From: Fibrobacter sp.
GTDB lineage: Bacteria > Fibrobacterota > Fibrobacteria > Fibrobacterales > Fibrobacteraceae
DNA length: 64,000 nt
Direction of reading: 5' to 3'
Assembly (NCBI GenBank): GCA_017412605.1
Contig: JAFPWY010000013.1
Location: 186,001 to 250,000 of the forward strand
The position numbers were made by a program, and so were the translations under genes. Of this stretch, positions 52,860 to 64,000 are shown in pieces; position 1 is the stretch's first letter, and each line of letters begins with the position of its first letter. The notes beneath the pieces are model-generated. The model made no database searches, was not told the origin of the DNA, and saw only the letters and a list, made by a program, of their open reading frames with translations.

Positions 52860-54128
52860 TTACAAGTTCTCGTCAATCCACTGGATTCGCTGCTCTATCC
52901 AGGATTTTATAGCGTCCACGGCTTCTTGATAATTACTGAATTTTCTAAAAAAAGGAAAGCCCGAGTCGTTTTCGAGTACAGGCCATCTCTTGAATTCGTT
53001 TGACGACGCTTTAGCCAGTTTCTTGGACATGGAATCTATGGAGTCCAGGGTGGCTACAAAAATGGTCCGGTTCTTTTTCCAATAGTCCCTGACCCGTTTT
53101 TTGTATTCCTTGTTCTTGAAAAGGAATCGGTTCCATCCGTAATTACGAATCAGCCATTGGTCGGGAACGGCTTTTTTGTCACTTGAATTTCCGTAACCTA
53201 GATCGAAATCCCATACAGGGCCCATCTTGATAGGCGTATTAATGCCATCCTTCTTTTCCCAGATTAAAAAGATACTCCGTCTAGGACCATCGATGTTCTT
53301 TGTGAATTCCTGTATCCAGTAATACCTTATGAAGTCCTCAATGTCAATCCATTGGGCGATGCTGTCCAAGCTGTAAATGTTTTTTGATTGCAGAAAACGT
53401 TCAAATTCGTTGATGTGGTTTTCGAGAAGTTCTTGGGATTGGGTGTTGGGTTCCTTGGGCTGGTCGAACTTGAAAATATAATTTAGGCTAGACGTAAACA
53501 AGACTCCGTTCGTAGATGTCTCGGTGGTCTTTTCAAAGAGAAAACTGGAATCGTTTTTAGCGATGTTTACCCGGTTCTTGGAAACTTTGACGTGTTCGAC
53601 CAAAAGGTATATTCCTTGGTACTGCCGATTCAGGAACAATTCAAGAAATTTGCATTGGGGATGGTATTCGTCGCCGAGGATTCCTGCCAGCTGGTAGGTG
53701 ATGTAGTTTAGCAGCATGGACTTGTCGCGAAAGTTGGACACAAGATCCCATTCCCTGTCTTTGGGCATGCCGAGCATGGAATCTTTTTCGGCAAGATTGA
53801 TTTTGTACCCATATTTTGTCATGACAAAACTGGAATTACCCCGGCCCCTGATTGTAAGGTCCTGAATGGGGCCAGAGGGCTTGCTTTTTCCGTAGAATTG
53901 AAAATGTGCGGGGACTTTCGTGTCTTTATTGTTAATTTGTCTGAAATTGTCGGTTTCGATGACGAGGCGGGGTAACCCTGCATAAGGGTATTCCGAATCA
54001 TCCAATGGCAAATAGGTTGAATTGGAATCGGTAGCCGACTCTTCGCTCCAGATACTGCAGGAGCTCATAAAAAGAAATAAAAAAAGAACAGAAAATATCG
54101 ATAGAAGCTTCTTTAATGGGCGCTTCAT
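52860..54128 (-). CDS. CotH-kinase lipoprotein within the capsule operon
   Basis: 422 residues with lipobox at FMSSCS (Cys24). After a short acidic spacer it has LPLDDSEYPYAGLPR, matching the CotH protein at 34890, then RGRGNSSFVMTKYGYKINL (nucleotide-binding type) and GPVWDFDLGYG (metal-binding Asp pair). A C-terminal basic/aromatic segment may contact the envelope. Between tagD (9 nt upstream) and wzx (19 nt downstream), so probably co-transcribed with the glycan genes. Probable substrate: an envelope protein or glycan; unknown. Confidence 0.85.
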   Translation of the reverse strand: MKRPLKKLLSIFSVLFLFLFMSSCSIWSEESATDSNSTYLPLDDSEYPYAGLPRLVIETDNFRQINNKDTKVPAHFQFYGKSKPSGPIQDLTIRGRGNSSFVMTKYGYKINLAEKDSMLGMPKDREWDLVSNFRDKSMLLNYITYQLAGILGDEYHPQCKFLELFLNRQYQGIYLLVEHVKVSKNRVNIAKNDSSFLFEKTTETSTNGVLFTSSLNYIFKFDQPKEPNTQSQELLENHINEFERFLQSKNIYSLDSIAQWIDIEDFIRYYWIQEFTKNIDGPRRSIFLIWEKKDGINTPIKMGPVWDFDLGYGNSSDKKAVPDQWLIRNYGWNRFLFKNKEYKKRVRDYWKKNRTIFVATLDSIDSMSKKLAKASSNEFKRWPVLENDSGFPFFRKFSNYQEAVDAIKSWIEQRIQWIDENL

Positions 54129-54609: not shown

Positions 54610-55455
54610 ATGGGCTATCTCGCCGTGAATCGATATTTTTCTTTGAAAATAATTCCTGCTTGTGCGCTCTTCTTGGCTGTTTTTTGCCTTGCTCGCGAAA
54701 CCATATCGCCAGTGCGTGCTCCTGAAAGCTATGCCTTGTTTGGCTCGCTTGTGGAACTTCGCGATGATGTCTACAGCGCAGATCTGAATTTGGCAGGAGA
54801 GTTCGCGCCTTGCAATTGTTTCGCTGTTTACGGCGATTTTTCGTACCGTCTCCTAAGCTATAAATATGACTTCACGTTCCATGACCAGCGCCACGAGGCG
54901 CTGAATATGCAAGTCAATGGATTGAATGAATCTTATTTGGGCATGAAATTAATGCCGTTTTCGTTTTTGGGGCTTGATGCCAGCTGGCGCCTTCCGCCGC
55001 GTGAGGGGGCAAGAGTGAATCGCTTTCACCGATTTGGTGTATCTCCGTATGGCCTTTACGAATTTTCTCGGAACATGACGCTTGGCACTGCGGTAGAATA
55101 TTTCACGTTTCTCGAAAAACAGAATTTCCAGCCGGGCGATGAATTGGGCGTAAAGGGCTCTATTTCGTGGAAAGTGTTGTGGGACCGCGGTAGCCGTTCG
55201 GGTTGGAAATTGGATTATGTTTTCCTATACCGTTGGCGTATCCAGGAATCCGAAAACATGAACATGGAACAGCCCTACCGCGAGATGGACGACCTCCATA
55301 GCGGTTTCAGAATGCGTTTCGATATGGCCCGCTATTTTTTGTTCTATGAAAAATCCCTCGGTATTGCCCTATTTTACGAGATGAACCGAGGGGATTTATT
55401 CGGAATGGAAACGGGGCACACCATTGGGCTCTATGCCAAATGGATGTTCCCGTAA
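54610..55455 (+). CDS. Predicted outer-membrane beta-barrel-like protein, unknown
   Basis: 281 residues from ATG 54610, or 276 from GTG 54625, which gives a cleaner signal peptide (NRYFSLKIIPACALFLAVFCLA). After cleavage the protein alternates hydrophobic and polar residues with many aromatics, for example GLYEFSRNMTLGTAVEYFTF, and ends in a strand closing with IGLYAKWMFP, like an outer-membrane barrel. No family is recognised. It is adjacent (3 nt, convergent) to the Wzc-type kinase, so a role in polysaccharide export is conceivable. Confidence 0.6.
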   Translation: MGYLAVNRYFSLKIIPACALFLAVFCLARETISPVRAPESYALFGSLVELRDDVYSADLNLAGEFAPCNCFAVYGDFSYRLLSYKYDFTFHDQRHEALNMQVNGLNESYLGMKLMPFSFLGLDASWRLPPREGARVNRFHRFGVSPYGLYEFSRNMTLGTAVEYFTFLEKQNFQPGDELGVKGSISWKVLWDRGSRSGWKLDYVFLYRWRIQESENMNMEQPYREMDDLHSGFRMRFDMARYFLFYEKSLGIALFYEMNRGDLFGMETGHTIGLYAKWMFP

Positions 55456-57718: not shown

Positions 57719-58597
57719 ATGTGGATTAACATTATTGCTGGAATTCTTGTTTCAACTGTCTTGTGCTTTTCGGCGGAGGGGGCTCCGGTTCCCGATTTGG
57801 CAAAGCTCACGACTGAAGACAGCGAGGACTATGGGGAATATACTAGGCGGATTGAACTGGTCGAGACGAGCGCCAAGGTGCTCGAGGATTCCCTCCAGGT
57901 GAAAATGGCTTCTATCGAAGACTCTCTGCCACCTCTTGCGCCGAAGGCCGACGATGAATCGGATTCCGTTTACGAGGCGCGAAAAAATCAGTATGATGTT
58001 GATATGCACAGGACCATGCGGGAAAAAGAGGACGCCGCCGCCATGATGTCGCGCCTTGGCGAACTGAAGGCCGCTGCGAACACGCTCAAGAAAATCCAGA
58101 TGGGCATGTTCGGATCGTTGCTGGTGAATACCGTTCCCGAACAGGCTTCGGTGAAGATTTCATCGCAACCGCAGACGCTAGAGTCTCCCGCCCATTTTGT
58201 ACAGGTTGTCCCGGAGTCTCTGACGGTAACCGTAAATTTGGATGGGTACGAAACGCAGAATATTCCATTGGCGCTCAAGGCTCGTGAAAATCGCGAAATG
58301 GATGTGACCTTGGTGGCGCTGGCCGAGGCGACCGAGCAGGTGAAGGAAGGGTGGACATGGCGTGGCTATGCCCGTGTATCTGCATTTGTTGCCGCTGCTG
58401 GTTTCCTGGGTGCTGGCCTGCTCGAAAACAAGATGGCCTCCGACCGTGCTGACGATTACAACAATCTTGCCGTCCGCACACAAAAGGACCGCGATGCAGC
58501 GGAACGCAGCATTGACCGCCGCCAGACGCTCCGTGGCGTGTATTACGGAATTGCCGGAGCCTTAACCGCATTTGGCGTGGCGACATTCTTCTTCTAG
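57719..58597 (+). CDS. PEGA-domain envelope protein
   Basis: 292 residues, AGAGGA SD, signal peptide of about 21 residues. An alpha-helical/coiled-coil region (about 25-135) leads to a PEGA-like domain (about 140-200: LLVNTVPEQASVKI, VNLDGYETQNI). A transmembrane helix lies near 216-232, a helical hairpin follows and the protein ends in a second hydrophobic segment (ITGALTAFG-like, about 272-290). PEGA domains occur in secreted or surface-anchored proteins. Leads a run with the SppA fusion and CNNM genes; function unknown. Confidence 0.7.
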   Translation: MWINIIAGILVSTVLCFSAEGAPVPDLAKLTTEDSEDYGEYTRRIELVETSAKVLEDSLQVKMASIEDSLPPLAPKADDESDSVYEARKNQYDVDMHRTMREKEDAAAMMSRLGELKAAANTLKKIQMGMFGSLLVNTVPEQASVKISSQPQTLESPAHFVQVVPESLTVTVNLDGYETQNIPLALKARENREMDVTLVALAEATEQVKEGWTWRGYARVSAFVAAAGFLGAGLLENKMASDRADDYNNLAVRTQKDRDAAERSIDRRQTLRGVYYGIAGALTAFGVATFFF

Positions 58598-58612: not shown

Positions 58613-60913
58613 ATGAAGCGATTTTTATTACCCTTTTTCATGCTTTCGGCATTCTGCTTTGCCTACTTGCCGGGCGAATCCGAATTCGCCTCGCTTGATG
58701 GTGGACATGGCATTTTCGGGAACCCCGCAGCCATTCCTGCATTTGATTCTTGGGGAGCCTTGACCGATTACCAGTTTGACGACGGCATTTCCACGTTCCG
58801 TATTGGTGGAAACCTGGATCACTTGGCGGCGGGATTTTCTTACAGCCGCGATGGCAAGGGCTTTGACGAGTCCCGTTGGAGCTTGAGCCATGGCTCGGAA
58901 TGGTTGGCACGGTCCATTTTCCTTGGAACTCGAGTCGAGGCCTTACGTAGTGCCGCCTTCAACGGGACGGAATGGCTTTTTACTGCCGGTGCGATTGTTC
59001 GCCCGATGGATTTTGTTTCGCTGGGGTATACCGGGCGGAATCTCTTGCAGGGTGGACCCGAAGAGCAGAAGAAGATCCATGACTTAGGCGCAACGGTGCG
59101 TTTGGGAAGCCTGTTCAGCGTGAGTTACGATGTCGAGAATTTCAAGAGACACCGCTTGCTTTTCGAACTGGAGCTTTACGGTACCCGTGTCGGGTTCAAG
59201 ATGCCGCTCCATGACGATACCCGCGAGTATACGCTTACCTTGTCTACTTCGCTGGGAGGCCACAATACCGCTGCGGTCACGTTCTTCGACGATTATATGA
59301 TAAAGCGCGGTGCATGGGGCTATCATGCGGCAAAGAATCCGCGTGCGACGACTTCGGCTCAGATATACCGCGTCCCGCTGGATAAGGAAGTGGGCGAGGT
59401 CGAAAGCGACTTTGTCTTTTTGGGCTCTCGCACCATGGGCATCCATACGGTTCGTAACCATTTCGAACATTTGCTGCACGATCCTGGTGCGGGAATCGTG
59501 ATCCTTGATTTTTCCGGGTATCGTGGCGGTGTCGCCATATCGATGGAAATCAAGCGCTACGTAGAAAAACTTCTTGCTCGGGGTTCCAAGGTCATTGCCT
59601 ATGTCGACGACTTGCGCCCCTCTGTTATACTTGCGGCTCTATCGTGCAATCGCATTGTCGTGGAACCCTCTGCGCACTTCTCTTGGCGCGGGTTGGGCGG
59701 GTCTTCGCTATATTACAAGGGCCTTTTCGACAAGCTCGGCGTGAAGGTGGAATTCCTGCGTCATGGCGCCTACAAGTCGGCTGTGGAACCATACACGGCC
59801 GATTCTATGTCGGCGGAAGCTCGTGCGAACAGGGAAGAGCTTTATAACGATTACTGGAGCGCCATAACGACCGCAGTGGCAGAACGCTTTGCTCGTCGCG
59901 GGGTACATCCTGACGATGCGAAACGCGCTATAGATTCCTTGGCCGGTGTTCCGCTTCTGACGGCAAAGAGTGCTGTGCAGAACGGTTTTGCCGATACGCT
60001 TCTCTATCTTGATCAGGTCCCGTCGTATGCGCTCAAGCAGTTCTTTGATATAGATGTTCCCATGGCCCGTTACAAGACATGGAAACCATCGGACAAGAAA
60101 TTGTTCCTTGAAGACTGGGGTTGGCGCCGCCATATTGCCCTCCTGAATATTGACGGGTCGATAGACGGACGTATGGAAAAGTCCGTACTGGACGCGTTGA
60201 GGGCTCTCCCCAGCAGTGGGGCGGAGGCTCTTGTCTTGAGAGTCTCGTCGCCTGGCGGAAGCGCTCTTGCTTCCGACAAGATTTGGGCGGCAGTCAAGTT
60301 TGTCCGTGAACAGGGTATCCCGGTGGTTGCAAGCATCGGCAATATGGGCGCTTCGGGTGGATACTACATTGCCTGCGGTGCCGAAACGATTATTGCCGAA
60401 CCGTATTCCATTGTGGGTAGCATAGGCATTTACGGCGGCAAGGTCGATGCATCCGGCCTTCTTGACAAACTCGGACTCAAGGCCGAGACGGTAAAGACGC
60501 ACAAGTACTCTGATGCGGAATCCTTCAACCGTCCATGGACGGACGAGGAAAGAGCAGCCCTTCAAGAATATATGGATGATTTTTACGACCGCTTTGTTGG
60601 TGTCGTGTCCGAGGCCATTGGCAAGCCCAAGGCTGAAATCGACTCCCTTTATGGTGGTGGCCGGGTGTTCATGGGATGGAAGGCTCTTGAGTACGGTCTA
60701 GTGCACAAACTAGGCGGCATTGATGCCGCAATCGCAGAAGCTAAGCGTCTTGCCGGTATCGGCGAGGGTACCAACATCGAAGTCATCTTTGTCAACACGG
60801 AAAAGTCTAGGATTCTCCCCGCAACAGGCGTTTCCGCCTGGCTTGACTTTGTGGACGGAATCGGCCGGACGCAGTTCTGGGCCATCGAACCGCAGCGTTT
60901 CGATTTTGAGTAG
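58613..60913 (+). CDS. SppA (signal peptide peptidase) fused to a barrel-like N-terminal region
   Basis: 766 residues. Signal peptide (1-17), then about 230 residues with alternating hydrophobic/polar strands opening in GHGIFGNPAAI, reminiscent of FadL/PorV-type outer-membrane barrels. The rest (about 260-766) is a double SppA: the first half has the catalytic Lys388 in RHGAYKSAVEPYT and the second the Ser581 in NMGASGGYYIACGA, the E. coli-like Lys/Ser dyad. SppA degrades cleaved signal peptides at the inner membrane; a fused N-terminal barrel is unusual and suggests a different location. 15 nt after the PEGA gene. Confidence 0.85.
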   Translation: MKRFLLPFFMLSAFCFAYLPGESEFASLDGGHGIFGNPAAIPAFDSWGALTDYQFDDGISTFRIGGNLDHLAAGFSYSRDGKGFDESRWSLSHGSEWLARSIFLGTRVEALRSAAFNGTEWLFTAGAIVRPMDFVSLGYTGRNLLQGGPEEQKKIHDLGATVRLGSLFSVSYDVENFKRHRLLFELELYGTRVGFKMPLHDDTREYTLTLSTSLGGHNTAAVTFFDDYMIKRGAWGYHAAKNPRATTSAQIYRVPLDKEVGEVESDFVFLGSRTMGIHTVRNHFEHLLHDPGAGIVILDFSGYRGGVAISMEIKRYVEKLLARGSKVIAYVDDLRPSVILAALSCNRIVVEPSAHFSWRGLGGSSLYYKGLFDKLGVKVEFLRHGAYKSAVEPYTADSMSAEARANREELYNDYWSAITTAVAERFARRGVHPDDAKRAIDSLAGVPLLTAKSAVQNGFADTLLYLDQVPSYALKQFFDIDVPMARYKTWKPSDKKLFLEDWGWRRHIALLNIDGSIDGRMEKSVLDALRALPSSGAEALVLRVSSPGGSALASDKIWAAVKFVREQGIPVVASIGNMGASGGYYIACGAETIIAEPYSIVGSIGIYGGKVDASGLLDKLGLKAETVKTHKYSDAESFNRPWTDEERAALQEYMDDFYDRFVGVVSEAIGKPKAEIDSLYGGGRVFMGWKALEYGLVHKLGGIDAAIAEAKRLAGIGEGTNIEVIFVNTEKSRILPATGVSAWLDFVDGIGRTQFWAIEPQRFDFE

Positions 60914-60933: not shown

Positions 60934-61992
60934 ATGTTTGCGATAGTAATGACTGTCTTGGGGTGCCTTGCCATTTCGGCTTTCTGCTCGGTGACCGAAG
61001 CCTCTTTTTACAGCGTGCCTCCTTCTACAGTGGAATCGCTCCGGCGGCACAAGAGATTCACGGCGAGGTACCTTGCGCATGTCAAGGAGAACATCGACCG
61101 CTATATCGCTTCTGTGCTGGTGGTGAACACCGTAGCGAACACCGTGGGCGCATCGCTCGCTACGGCTCTTGCTGTGAAGAGACTCTCGCCCATGGGCGCA
61201 ATGGCGCTGCCCGTCATCCTTACCATATTGATTCTGCTCTTTGGCGAAATCACGCCGAAAACGCTCGGCGTGAAGCAGGCAAAGATTGCGGCCCCGCTGG
61301 TGGCTGTGCCGTTCTACTACATCACCAAGATTTTGAGTTGTACTGGAATTATTTGGCTTTGTCTTACACTCACTAAGCGCTGGACCCGTGAGGACGAAAC
61401 TAAGAAGGACGTCAGCGTGGAAGACATCAATAGTCTTGTGAACCTCGGGCTTCGCGAAGATGTCATTGACCGCCAGCAGGCGCTAGTTATCAAGAACATT
61501 CTCGCCCTGAAATCCGTTGCCGTGCGCAAGGTGATGACTCCGCGCCAGGTCGTGTTCTCGCTACCAGCCGACAAGACGATTGGCGAGACTGTGGATGAAC
61601 GTGGAAACTGGCCGTTCTCCCGTGTTCCGCTCCATGGCGAAAAGAAGGATGACTGGGTGGGAATCGTGCTCCGCCGTGATGCGTACAACAAGCTTGCGGA
61701 AGGCAAACGTGACATCAAGCTCCGCCAGATGATGCGGCCCCTGCTTCTTGTGCCTGACAGCCTGACGCTCGACAAACTCCTGCTCCGCTTCCTCAAGCAG
61801 CGAGGTCATATGGTGGGTGTCGTGGATGAGTGGGGCGCTATCGCGGGTATCGTGAGCTTGGAGGACGTGCTCGAAGAAATCCTCGGTCGCGAAATCGTGG
61901 ACGAGTACGACGAATCCGTGAATTTGCAGGAAACTGCCCGCCGCCGTTCAAATGCGCTTGCGTCGATGCACAAGAACGAGAAGAGACCGTGA
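60934..61992 (+). CDS. CNNM/CorC (HlyC) membrane protein with CBS pair
   Basis: 352 residues with GAGG upstream of ATG. A DUF21 membrane domain (about 1-160; four hydrophobic segments, LFGEITPKTLGV) is followed by two CBS domains (about 190-325; VMTPRQVVFS, VVDEWGAIAGIVSLEDVLEEI). Such proteins are linked to magnesium/cobalt efflux and membrane integrity. The usual C-terminal CorC_HlyC domain is missing or very short. Third gene of the PEGA-SppA run, 20 nt after SppA. Its stop is 11 nt from that of the convergent CotH gene. Confidence 0.85.
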   Translation: MFAIVMTVLGCLAISAFCSVTEASFYSVPPSTVESLRRHKRFTARYLAHVKENIDRYIASVLVVNTVANTVGASLATALAVKRLSPMGAMALPVILTILILLFGEITPKTLGVKQAKIAAPLVAVPFYYITKILSCTGIIWLCLTLTKRWTREDETKKDVSVEDINSLVNLGLREDVIDRQQALVIKNILALKSVAVRKVMTPRQVVFSLPADKTIGETVDERGNWPFSRVPLHGEKKDDWVGIVLRRDAYNKLAEGKRDIKLRQMMRPLLLVPDSLTLDKLLLRFLKQRGHMVGVVDEWGAIAGIVSLEDVLEEILGREIVDEYDESVNLQETARRRSNALASMHKNEKRP

Positions 61993-62003
61993 TGACTAGC
62001 CGG

Positions 62004-64000
62004 TTATTGGCATTCTGCTGTATATATTGAATCTCGGATAGGGTCTATTATCCGGTTTGGATCGGTTGAACCGTCTTCCCATGCTATGAATGCTGTAGGG
62101 CATTCTACGCTCAATTTCATGGGATGATGTTCAAAGACATCCCATTTGTATTCTTGGCTTTGTTTGATGTCGAAATCATCCAATTTTAATATTCCGTTGC
62201 CTTTTACTTCTATAGTAATGGGAACTTCGTCATTTAGGTCAAATGCTTCTTTAAAATCGTTTCGTACTGTTATGTCACGATTGTAGGACCATGTTCTTAA
62301 ACAACTGCCGTCTGTTTCAAAGTATGTCCCGCAAGAGTTTTTATGACTATTTCTTGTGTATAGTTCTAAATCTCTTGTAATTTGCGCTGGGTCGATTGAT
62401 TTATTTATGAGGTCTATTTGTTGCGCTACTTTTTTGCCATTGATAAATGTTGAATACAGGTAAGATGCGCGATTGATGAACTTTTGCTTGAAATCGGAAT
62501 TTTGGATAAGTTTTATAAAAATGTTTCCAAAACATTTGTAGTTGTTCCCGCCAGAACATGGTAAATTTGGTCGCCCTCCGCCGAGTATCCACTCAATCAT
62601 ATTTGTATTTTCCGTAAACCCGGCGAGTTTAGGTAAAAAGTCGAAACCATTGTCTATGTCGTAAGCTATGAATTTCCATGGGGAATTTCCACTTTTCCAT
62701 GCTCTCACATTATTTTGAGGCCAATCGTTGTTGAAATAAAAAATTTCTGCGGCCATATATTCCAGATAGTTTGGAATGTCAATCATTTTGGCAACAGACT
62801 GATATGCCGCACTGTCGTCTTTAAAGTTTGATTTGTCAATAAATTGTATTGTGTTAAGATAATCGTCCAAAGAGCCGTTTTTTAGATATATGTTATCATT
62901 TATAATTTTGATGAAGTCAACATTGTTGTTGTCTATTCCATAATTGGTTTCTATGAAATGCTCATTGAGCTTTTCTTGCATGCCAAAGATTCCTTGATAT
63001 TTACCATTGTAAAATACAATAACCTGTCTAGAGCGTTGATAGTCTACATTTGTTCCTTCAAGAAGGCTTGTTGCCAAAGCATCTTCATAAAGATCTCTTT
63101 CAAAGCGATTTCCGTTGTTGCGTAATTTGAATCCTTTGAATGCGCTTTTTTCCGGCCGTGTTTCAAATAGAGGATAATGTATTTTTCCGGATTGATATTC
63201 TTTCCTCATTCTTATTTCAACGGATTTTTTTTCAAAATTTCTGCTGTAGTTTCCGGCAATTGAAAGCCCTGCGTTTATTTCAAAAGCTTTCTCTTTCGAG
63301 GAACTTCCGTTGGCAAAATATTCCACGTGTGCCGGATATTCAACATCTTCCCAAAACTTGGCTTCTTTGCAAGGGTTTGGCAGGCATGGGCTGGCGTTGA
63401 GGTATTCTTTTACATAATACGGGTCTACGCTGATAGATACAACGGGCATATTGATTTTTTCGTTGACGAAGTAGGTCTCGGTTTGCTGCTTTGCTAGCAT
63501 TCCGCTTATGAATTCGTAACAGCGGACGACTGTAGTTGTATCTATCAACCGGGCTTCTGAAAATGCCGGTGTGGTTGAATCGGGTTCAGAACCGTCAAAG
63601 GTACATTGGACGATGCCTTGTGTTGGGGGGGGTGATAGCGTAAATGGCTTTTTGAAACCTGCATCTGGAATCAGCGCCCGGGATGCGGCTTGCGCAATTA
63701 TCTTGTTGAGGGAATCCTTAATGTTTGTGGAGTCGTTTTTTACATCAACGGAATCGTTGTTGACGTTTGCGGAGTCGTTTTTTACATCAACGGAATTATT
63801 GATAACGTTTGCGGAGTCGTTATTTGTGTTGAGGGAATCCTTAATGTTGATGGAGCTTTTTTTTACATTGACGGAATCGTTGTTGATGTTTGCGGAATCA
63901 TTTTTAACATAGGTAGAGTCTGTTGTTGCTCCGATGGTGGAGGACTCTTTTTCAACAGGGGTGTTTTCTAAGGAATCGTTGATTAAAGAGATTGCCTCGG
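62004..64000 (-). CDS. CotH-kinase protein with tandem-repeat linker (5' truncated)
   Basis: The frame stays open to the right edge (64000), so the N-terminus and any signal lie outside; the TTG at 63548 is not the start. From the edge: a Ser/Asn/Asp/Val repeat linker (63724-63920), a chitobiase-C-like domain (QCTFDGSEP, RLIDTTTVVRC), the CotH domain with EKKSVEIRMRKEY and FIAYDIDNGFDF, and a C-terminal InlB-B-like repeat (ILKLDDFDI, FIAWEDGSTD). It is closer in plan to the two large CotH proteins at 28.8-34.7 kb than to the small ones. AT-rich. Confidence 0.85.
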   Translation of the reverse strand, partial: EAISLINDSLENTPVEKESSTIGATTDSTYVKNDSANINNDSVNVKKSSINIKDSLNTNNDSANVINNSVDVKNDSANVNNDSVDVKNDSTNIKDSLNKIIAQAASRALIPDAGFKKPFTLSPPPTQGIVQCTFDGSEPDSTTPAFSEARLIDTTTVVRCYEFISGMLAKQQTETYFVNEKINMPVVSISVDPYYVKEYLNASPCLPNPCKEAKFWEDVEYPAHVEYFANGSSSKEKAFEINAGLSIAGNYSRNFEKKSVEIRMRKEYQSGKIHYPLFETRPEKSAFKGFKLRNNGNRFERDLYEDALATSLLEGTNVDYQRSRQVIVFYNGKYQGIFGMQEKLNEHFIETNYGIDNNNVDFIKIINDNIYLKNGSLDDYLNTIQFIDKSNFKDDSAAYQSVAKMIDIPNYLEYMAAEIFYFNNDWPQNNVRAWKSGNSPWKFIAYDIDNGFDFLPKLAGFTENTNMIEWILGGGRPNLPCSGGNNYKCFGNIFIKLIQNSDFKQKFINRASYLYSTFINGKKVAQQIDLINKSIDPAQITRDLELYTRNSHKNSCGTYFETDGSCLRTWSYNRDITVRNDFKEAFDLNDEVPITIEVKGNGILKLDDFDIKQSQEYKWDVFEHHPMKLSVECPTAFIAWEDGSTDPNRIIDPIRDSIYTAECQ
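63724..63920 (-). repeat. Degenerate tandem repeats coding a NDSxNVxNDSVDVK-type linker
   Basis: Roughly 42-bp units, each made of two related 21-bp halves, occur in line and stay in frame in the CotH gene. The 7-residue halves read like NDSANVN and NDSVDVK. Between units there are substitutions, so the array is an ageing or diverging tandem repeat rather than a perfect one. Confidence 0.7.

Follow-up and report, generated by a model that had tools for sequence, protein, structure and literature searches.

A tandem S49 (SppA) protease fused to a predicted FadL/PorV-type outer-membrane barrel in Fibrobacter

The window analyzed here is a stretch of 64,000 nucleotides from a Fibrobacter sp. genome (contig JAFPWY010000013.1 of GenBank assembly GCA_017412605.1, positions 186,001 to 250,000), and it contains an open reading frame in which a beta-rich N-terminal part precedes a tandem S49 protease (Table 1). 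The host genome (3.5 Mb, 99.5% complete) holds this gene as its sole S49 peptidase gene, and also encodes an M50 (RseP-type) protease. The signal peptide is shared by the full-length relatives and by almost every fused protein from other phyla. Behind it, the beta-rich stretch measures about 220 residues and extends to about residue 240. It includes the sequence GNPAA at residues 36-40. An artefact of assembly or frameshifting is ruled out and the fusion is considered real, because 31 full-length relatives, 37-95% identical to it, were recovered from Fibrobacter, Fibrimonadales and other Fibrobacteria genomes, the closest one found (95%) being from a yak omasum Fibrobacter.

Table 1. Features of the fusion gene and its immediate neighbors, with positions in the window.
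Feature	Residues	Position	Strand	Basis or remark
Barrel/SppA fusion ORF	766 aa plus stop	58613..60913	+	
Signal peptide (signal peptidase I type), MKRFLLPFFMLSAFCFA	1-17	58613..58663	+	Sequence, relatives
N-terminal barrel plug (predicted)	18-47	58664..58753	+	Aligns with the plug of FadL from chain residue 10
FadL-type NPA motif (Asn37-Pro38-Ala39)	37-39	58721..58729	+	Cross-phylum alignment, hhalign against FadL
14-stranded beta barrel (predicted)	48-238	58754..59326	+	AlphaFold2, fold matches, amphipathic strands
Short linker	239-249	59327..59359	+	AlphaFold2 model
N-terminal S49 domain	250-480	59360..60052	+	Pfam, structural match
Catalytic Lys388, general base (E. coli Lys209)	388	59774..59776	+	Alignments
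C-terminal S49 domain	505-727	60125..60793	+	Pfam, structural match
Catalytic Ser581, nucleophile (E. coli Ser409)	581	60353..60355	+	Alignments
CNNM/CBS (CorC/GldE-like) membrane protein		60934..61992	+	20 bases downstream of the fusion
PEGA-domain exported protein		57719..58597	+	Ends 15 bases upstream of the fusion

In each of the 28 Fibrobacter-group loci, the CNNM/CBS gene directly follows the fusion and is likely to be its operon partner; it does not adjoin the fusion in four Fibrimonadales-type loci (L029-L032). The PEGA-domain gene on the upstream side is retained in close relatives only. No partner gene that is constant across phyla was seen, and the neighbors vary by genome, so that gene order indicates no functional partner. 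The original prediction had suggested a coupling to protein export, for which no direct support was obtained: in the lineages examined no conserved secretion partner adjoins the gene, and the likeness to PorV described below concerns a fold that is common to transporters. Elsewhere in the window, a 281-aa exported beta-rich protein without a Pfam or NCBIfam match (54610-55455, plus strand) resembles a small outer-membrane protein and is kept near the fusion in some relatives. CotH-like proteins are encoded on both sides of the block (52860-54128 and 62004-63548, minus strand), and an imperfect 42-base tandem repeat of 4.7 copies (63718-63910) lies upstream of the second of these, near the end of the window.

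On sequence grounds, the fusion is a member of the S49/SppA family, as judged from its catalytic dyad, its tandem domains and its score with the NCBIfam model SppA_dom (TIGR00706), which passes the cut-off (199 bits against 155.45). Two stretches were assigned to PF01343 in a Pfam search (E 3e-60), and residues 293-717 align with E. coli SppA (31% identity over the 427 columns of the profile alignment). By the offset of this alignment, Lys388 and Ser581 coincide with Lys209 and Ser409 of the E. coli protein. Both residues are invariant in a 32-row alignment (A1) and present in all fused relatives that were read. The equivalog model for the SppA 67K type (TIGR00705) scores below its cut-off (238.4 against 311.45 bits) and covers residues 280-724 only; the inner-membrane helix of this type is absent from the fusion, which has the barrel in its place. 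In the full-protein AlphaFold2 model the S49 fold begins at residue 250, and the active-site loop (residues 387-398) is modeled with low confidence. Comparison with the structure of E. coli SppA (3bf0) gave a Z-score of 35 over 453 aligned residues, starting at residue 249, such that the linker and the barrel stand where the E. coli enzyme has its membrane helix. The description of a complete two-domain SppA with an intact Lys/Ser dyad behind a beta-rich N-terminus containing GNPAA was thus borne out.

The protein was matched in 141 of the 151 genomes of the phylum. Nearly all genomes of the genus Fibrobacter carry the full-length fusion, which is common in the family as well. Divergent fusions with signal peptide, NPA motif and beta-rich domain occur in more distant classes; others have only unfused SppA, in forms of about 600 or about 300 aa. 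Outside the phylum, sampled genomes of other families proved to contain S49 reading frames of 750-950 aa. A fusion with NPA motif, beta-rich domain and intact Lys/Ser is present in 23 of the 127 sampled genomes (G168-G294), a count from which a protein of genome G266 (L112), with a beta-rich N-terminus lacking NPA, was excluded. Its occurrence there with the dyad intact argues that both halves are selected together. In about half of these genomes, the fusion is accompanied by another SppA, encoded separately and about 580-690 aa long. Among the loci of other phyla, L109-L111 and L113-L115 encode fused SppA proteins with very divergent barrels, two of them (L113 and L114) being paralogues in the single genome G272. 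One further candidate (L116) was rejected as a fusion: although long, it has no barrel.

In an S49 tree the fused proteins cluster, requiring 9 changes against 20.5 in shuffles, on long branches. A single clade of fused proteins is compatible with the tree in the approximately unbiased (AU) test (p 0.314). Because of this clustering and of the AU result, an old architecture with subsequent losses, or one that was gained a few times, is plausible from the sequences and not proven.

The N-terminal part has no match in Pfam, NCBIfam or the PDB sequences, and a comparison of structures was therefore needed. The Pfam Toluene_X/FadL family gave no match at E up to 1, either with the full protein or with 19 N-terminal parts, for which reason the fusion is not filed by sequence as a member of that family. 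It was likewise unmatched at E up to 1 by the PorV_fam model (NF033709; bar 90 bits). When the host genome was searched with a profile of the fused barrels, a second protein was found at E 3e-7, which belongs to the PorV family; NF033709 matches this same place in the genome, making the link between the fusion and PorV_fam an indirect one. The domain is very divergent, with a mean column identity of 24% in a 34-row alignment spanning several classes and other phyla. This alignment retains the NPA motif, an RP motif and a few glycines, and Asn37 and Pro38 are invariant in it. With hhalign, the NPA of the fusion falls on that of E. coli FadL in an overall weak match, and the alignment with PorV, which we do not count as evidence, is confined to the NPA region (E 0.016, low probability). 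As is typical of membrane barrels, the predicted strands alternate between hydrophobic and polar residues, to a degree of 2.99 (mean of 32 relatives), compared to 1.44 ± 0.27 in shuffles, none of which (0/2000) was as high. Beyond the signal peptide, no helix-like hydrophobic stretch that could anchor the protein is present in the fusion.

AlphaFold2 modeling of the full protein, based on 32 relatives, predicts 14 antiparallel strands over residues 48-238, arranged as an up-and-down barrel preceded by the NPA-bearing plug. The same 14 strands were obtained when the N-terminal domain was modeled in isolation (pTM 0.75, with block pLDDT values of 81-94 across most of the barrel). Among solved structures, the predicted barrel is best matched by E. 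coli FadL (Z 22.7, 214 residues aligned at 2.7 A), followed by P. aeruginosa FadL (Z 22.4), TodX (21.9) and CymD (21.8), and the FadL matches take in the N-terminal plug. Two chains that we take to be PorV of the type 9 translocon score similarly (8gl6_F, Z 21.5; 6h3i_F, Z 21.3), as does, at Z 20.0, the FadL-like chain of the Flavobacterium BAM complex (9n2d_B); the plain porin OmpG ranks lower (Z about 17). Foldseek TM-scores are only about 0.5, because FadL is much longer. Structure prediction thus yields a barrel with FadL, TodX and PorV among its matches and no soluble domain at the N-terminus, and we interpret this part as a predicted outer-membrane barrel of the FadL/PorV type with a plug. 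This supports the outer-membrane reading put forward in the original prediction.

The rank of PorV among the fold matches, together with the presence of SprA and several PorV-family proteins in the genome, might suggest that the fusion is tied to type 9 secretion (T9SS). We regard this as very improbable: the structural scores of FadL and TodX are no lower than that of PorV, no T9SS genes adjoin the fusion in the loci examined, and a T9SS is not expected throughout the 23 fusion-bearing genomes outside the phylum.

In our preferred reading, to which we assign a probability of roughly 0.65, the protein is an SppA (S49) protease that uses the 14-stranded FadL/PorV-type barrel as an outer-membrane anchor and clips hydrophobic peptides from the periplasmic side. 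The signal peptide, the intact dyad, the lack of any other anchor and the conservation of the whole protein are seen in the sequences themselves. The fold and the location in the outer membrane are predicted from the models, and we infer the oligomer, the substrates and the role. The signal peptide would direct export through Sec, after which the barrel would insert into the outer membrane with the NPA plug inside, taking over from the inner-membrane helix. The S49 part would then be suspended in the periplasm, separated from the barrel by about 10 residues, since the number of strands is even and the plug is N-terminal as in FadL. The active site would consist of Lys388 and Ser581 and would presumably sit in an SppA-type oligomer that opens toward the outer membrane. 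The most likely substrates, cut at or near the inner face of this membrane, are hydrophobic peptides such as remnants of signal peptides, stubs left from outer-membrane or exported proteins, and strands that have misfolded. The fusion would thereby constitute an outer-membrane counterpart of the inner-membrane SppA. In Flavobacterium columnare, deletion of an ordinary sppA, whose product is described with a transmembrane helix, increased the production of outer-membrane vesicles 3.8-fold (PMC13236525), which supports a role of SppA in envelope upkeep. SppA goes unmentioned in the main texts of the published F. succinogenes envelope proteomes.

A different location would follow if the N-terminal part were a beta domain that is soluble or associated with the inner membrane, and the protein acted there as an ordinary inner-membrane SppA; as this genome has no other S49 protease, the usual task of SppA would otherwise be left unfilled. 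Yet the M50 protease could clear signal peptides, and roughly half of the genomes that carry the fusion in other phyla also encode a separate SppA of ordinary size. Considering also the FadL-like model of 14 strands with its plug, the alternating hydrophobicity, and the signal peptide as the only membrane helix, we find an inner-membrane protein very unlikely.

The barrel could be more than an anchor, and act, like FadL, as a working channel that passes hydrophobic peptides outward through a lateral opening or the lumen, or delivers peptides of the outer membrane to the protease. Its closest folds are transporters of hydrophobic substrates, the NPA plug is kept, and the joint conservation of plug and fusion in many lineages exceeds what a bare anchor would need. 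However, the loops are short, the barrel is about half as long as FadL, and the divergence of the domain outside the NPA motif, the RP motif and a few glycines leaves no conserved binding pocket visible. We therefore hold a channel function to be unlikely, though worth weighing, and prefer the barrel as an anchor.

The likeness of this barrel-anchored protease to known systems is partial in each case. It shares with E. coli SppA (protease IV; TIGR00705, MEROPS S49, 3bf0) the placement of the lysine in the first half and of the serine in the second, whereas the short N-terminal inner-membrane helix of the E. coli enzyme contrasts with a cleavable signal peptide followed by a predicted 14-stranded barrel. 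With the channels FadL and TodX (2r8a, 6z38) it has in common the 14 strands, an N-terminal plug and the NPA motif in register (Z about 22). FadL, however, forms a channel by itself and has about 420 residues and long loops; the fused barrel has about 190 residues and short loops, is unrecognized by Pfam and carries a protease. A FadL-like protein, BamG, is a subunit of the BAM complex of Bacteroidota (PMC12611786). Like BamG and PorV of the T9SS, the fused barrel would be a FadL-type barrel that serves the handling of envelope proteins, but these two are separate subunits of larger machines, whereas in the fusion the barrel is covalently joined to an enzyme. In OmpA-type architecture, too, a barrel comes first and a C-terminal periplasmic domain follows; OmpA combines 8 strands with a peptidoglycan-binding domain, in contrast to 14 strands and a protease here.

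For decades, work on SppA has treated it as a protease of the inner membrane. The architecture found here is an unusually widespread variant that is unremarked in the papers searched: no curated family with the same arrangement was found, and it is undescribed in the literature searched, which comprised mostly papers available without subscription, such that an earlier mention elsewhere is possible. In this literature, no paper contains both "FadL-like" and "peptidase S49", and SppA and FadL are named together only in an article on membrane organization from 2015, with one mention each. Since family models see only the S49 part, the fusions are likely to be named just "signal peptide peptidase SppA".

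Recurrence of the architecture in many families outside the phylum suggests a second, outer-membrane class of SppA. A bolder and rather doubtful extension would be that this class is ancient and spans phyla, that many diderms have one S49 protease per membrane, and that the plugged barrel actively gates the passage of hydrophobic peptides, either supplying the protease with them or letting its products out. An outer-membrane SppA operating in many lineages would shift part of SppA biology to the other membrane; outer-membrane quality control would gain a protease that is covalently anchored by a barrel, and FadL-type barrels would gain another role in protein handling beside those of PorV and BamG. 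Fibrobacter provides a clean test case, the fusion being its only S49 protease.

Two other PorV-type arrangements were observed in the host genome. A frame of 794 aa (L162, G000:C10:160498 onwards; also L070) begins with a PorV-like barrel and continues with tetratricopeptide-type repeats, a further use of the FadL/PorV-type barrel as a module in this genome. The second, a PorV-family protein of 744 aa (L065, G000:C13:159273-161393, minus strand), has a propeller-like repeat region that is seemingly inserted between the NPA plug and the remaining barrel.
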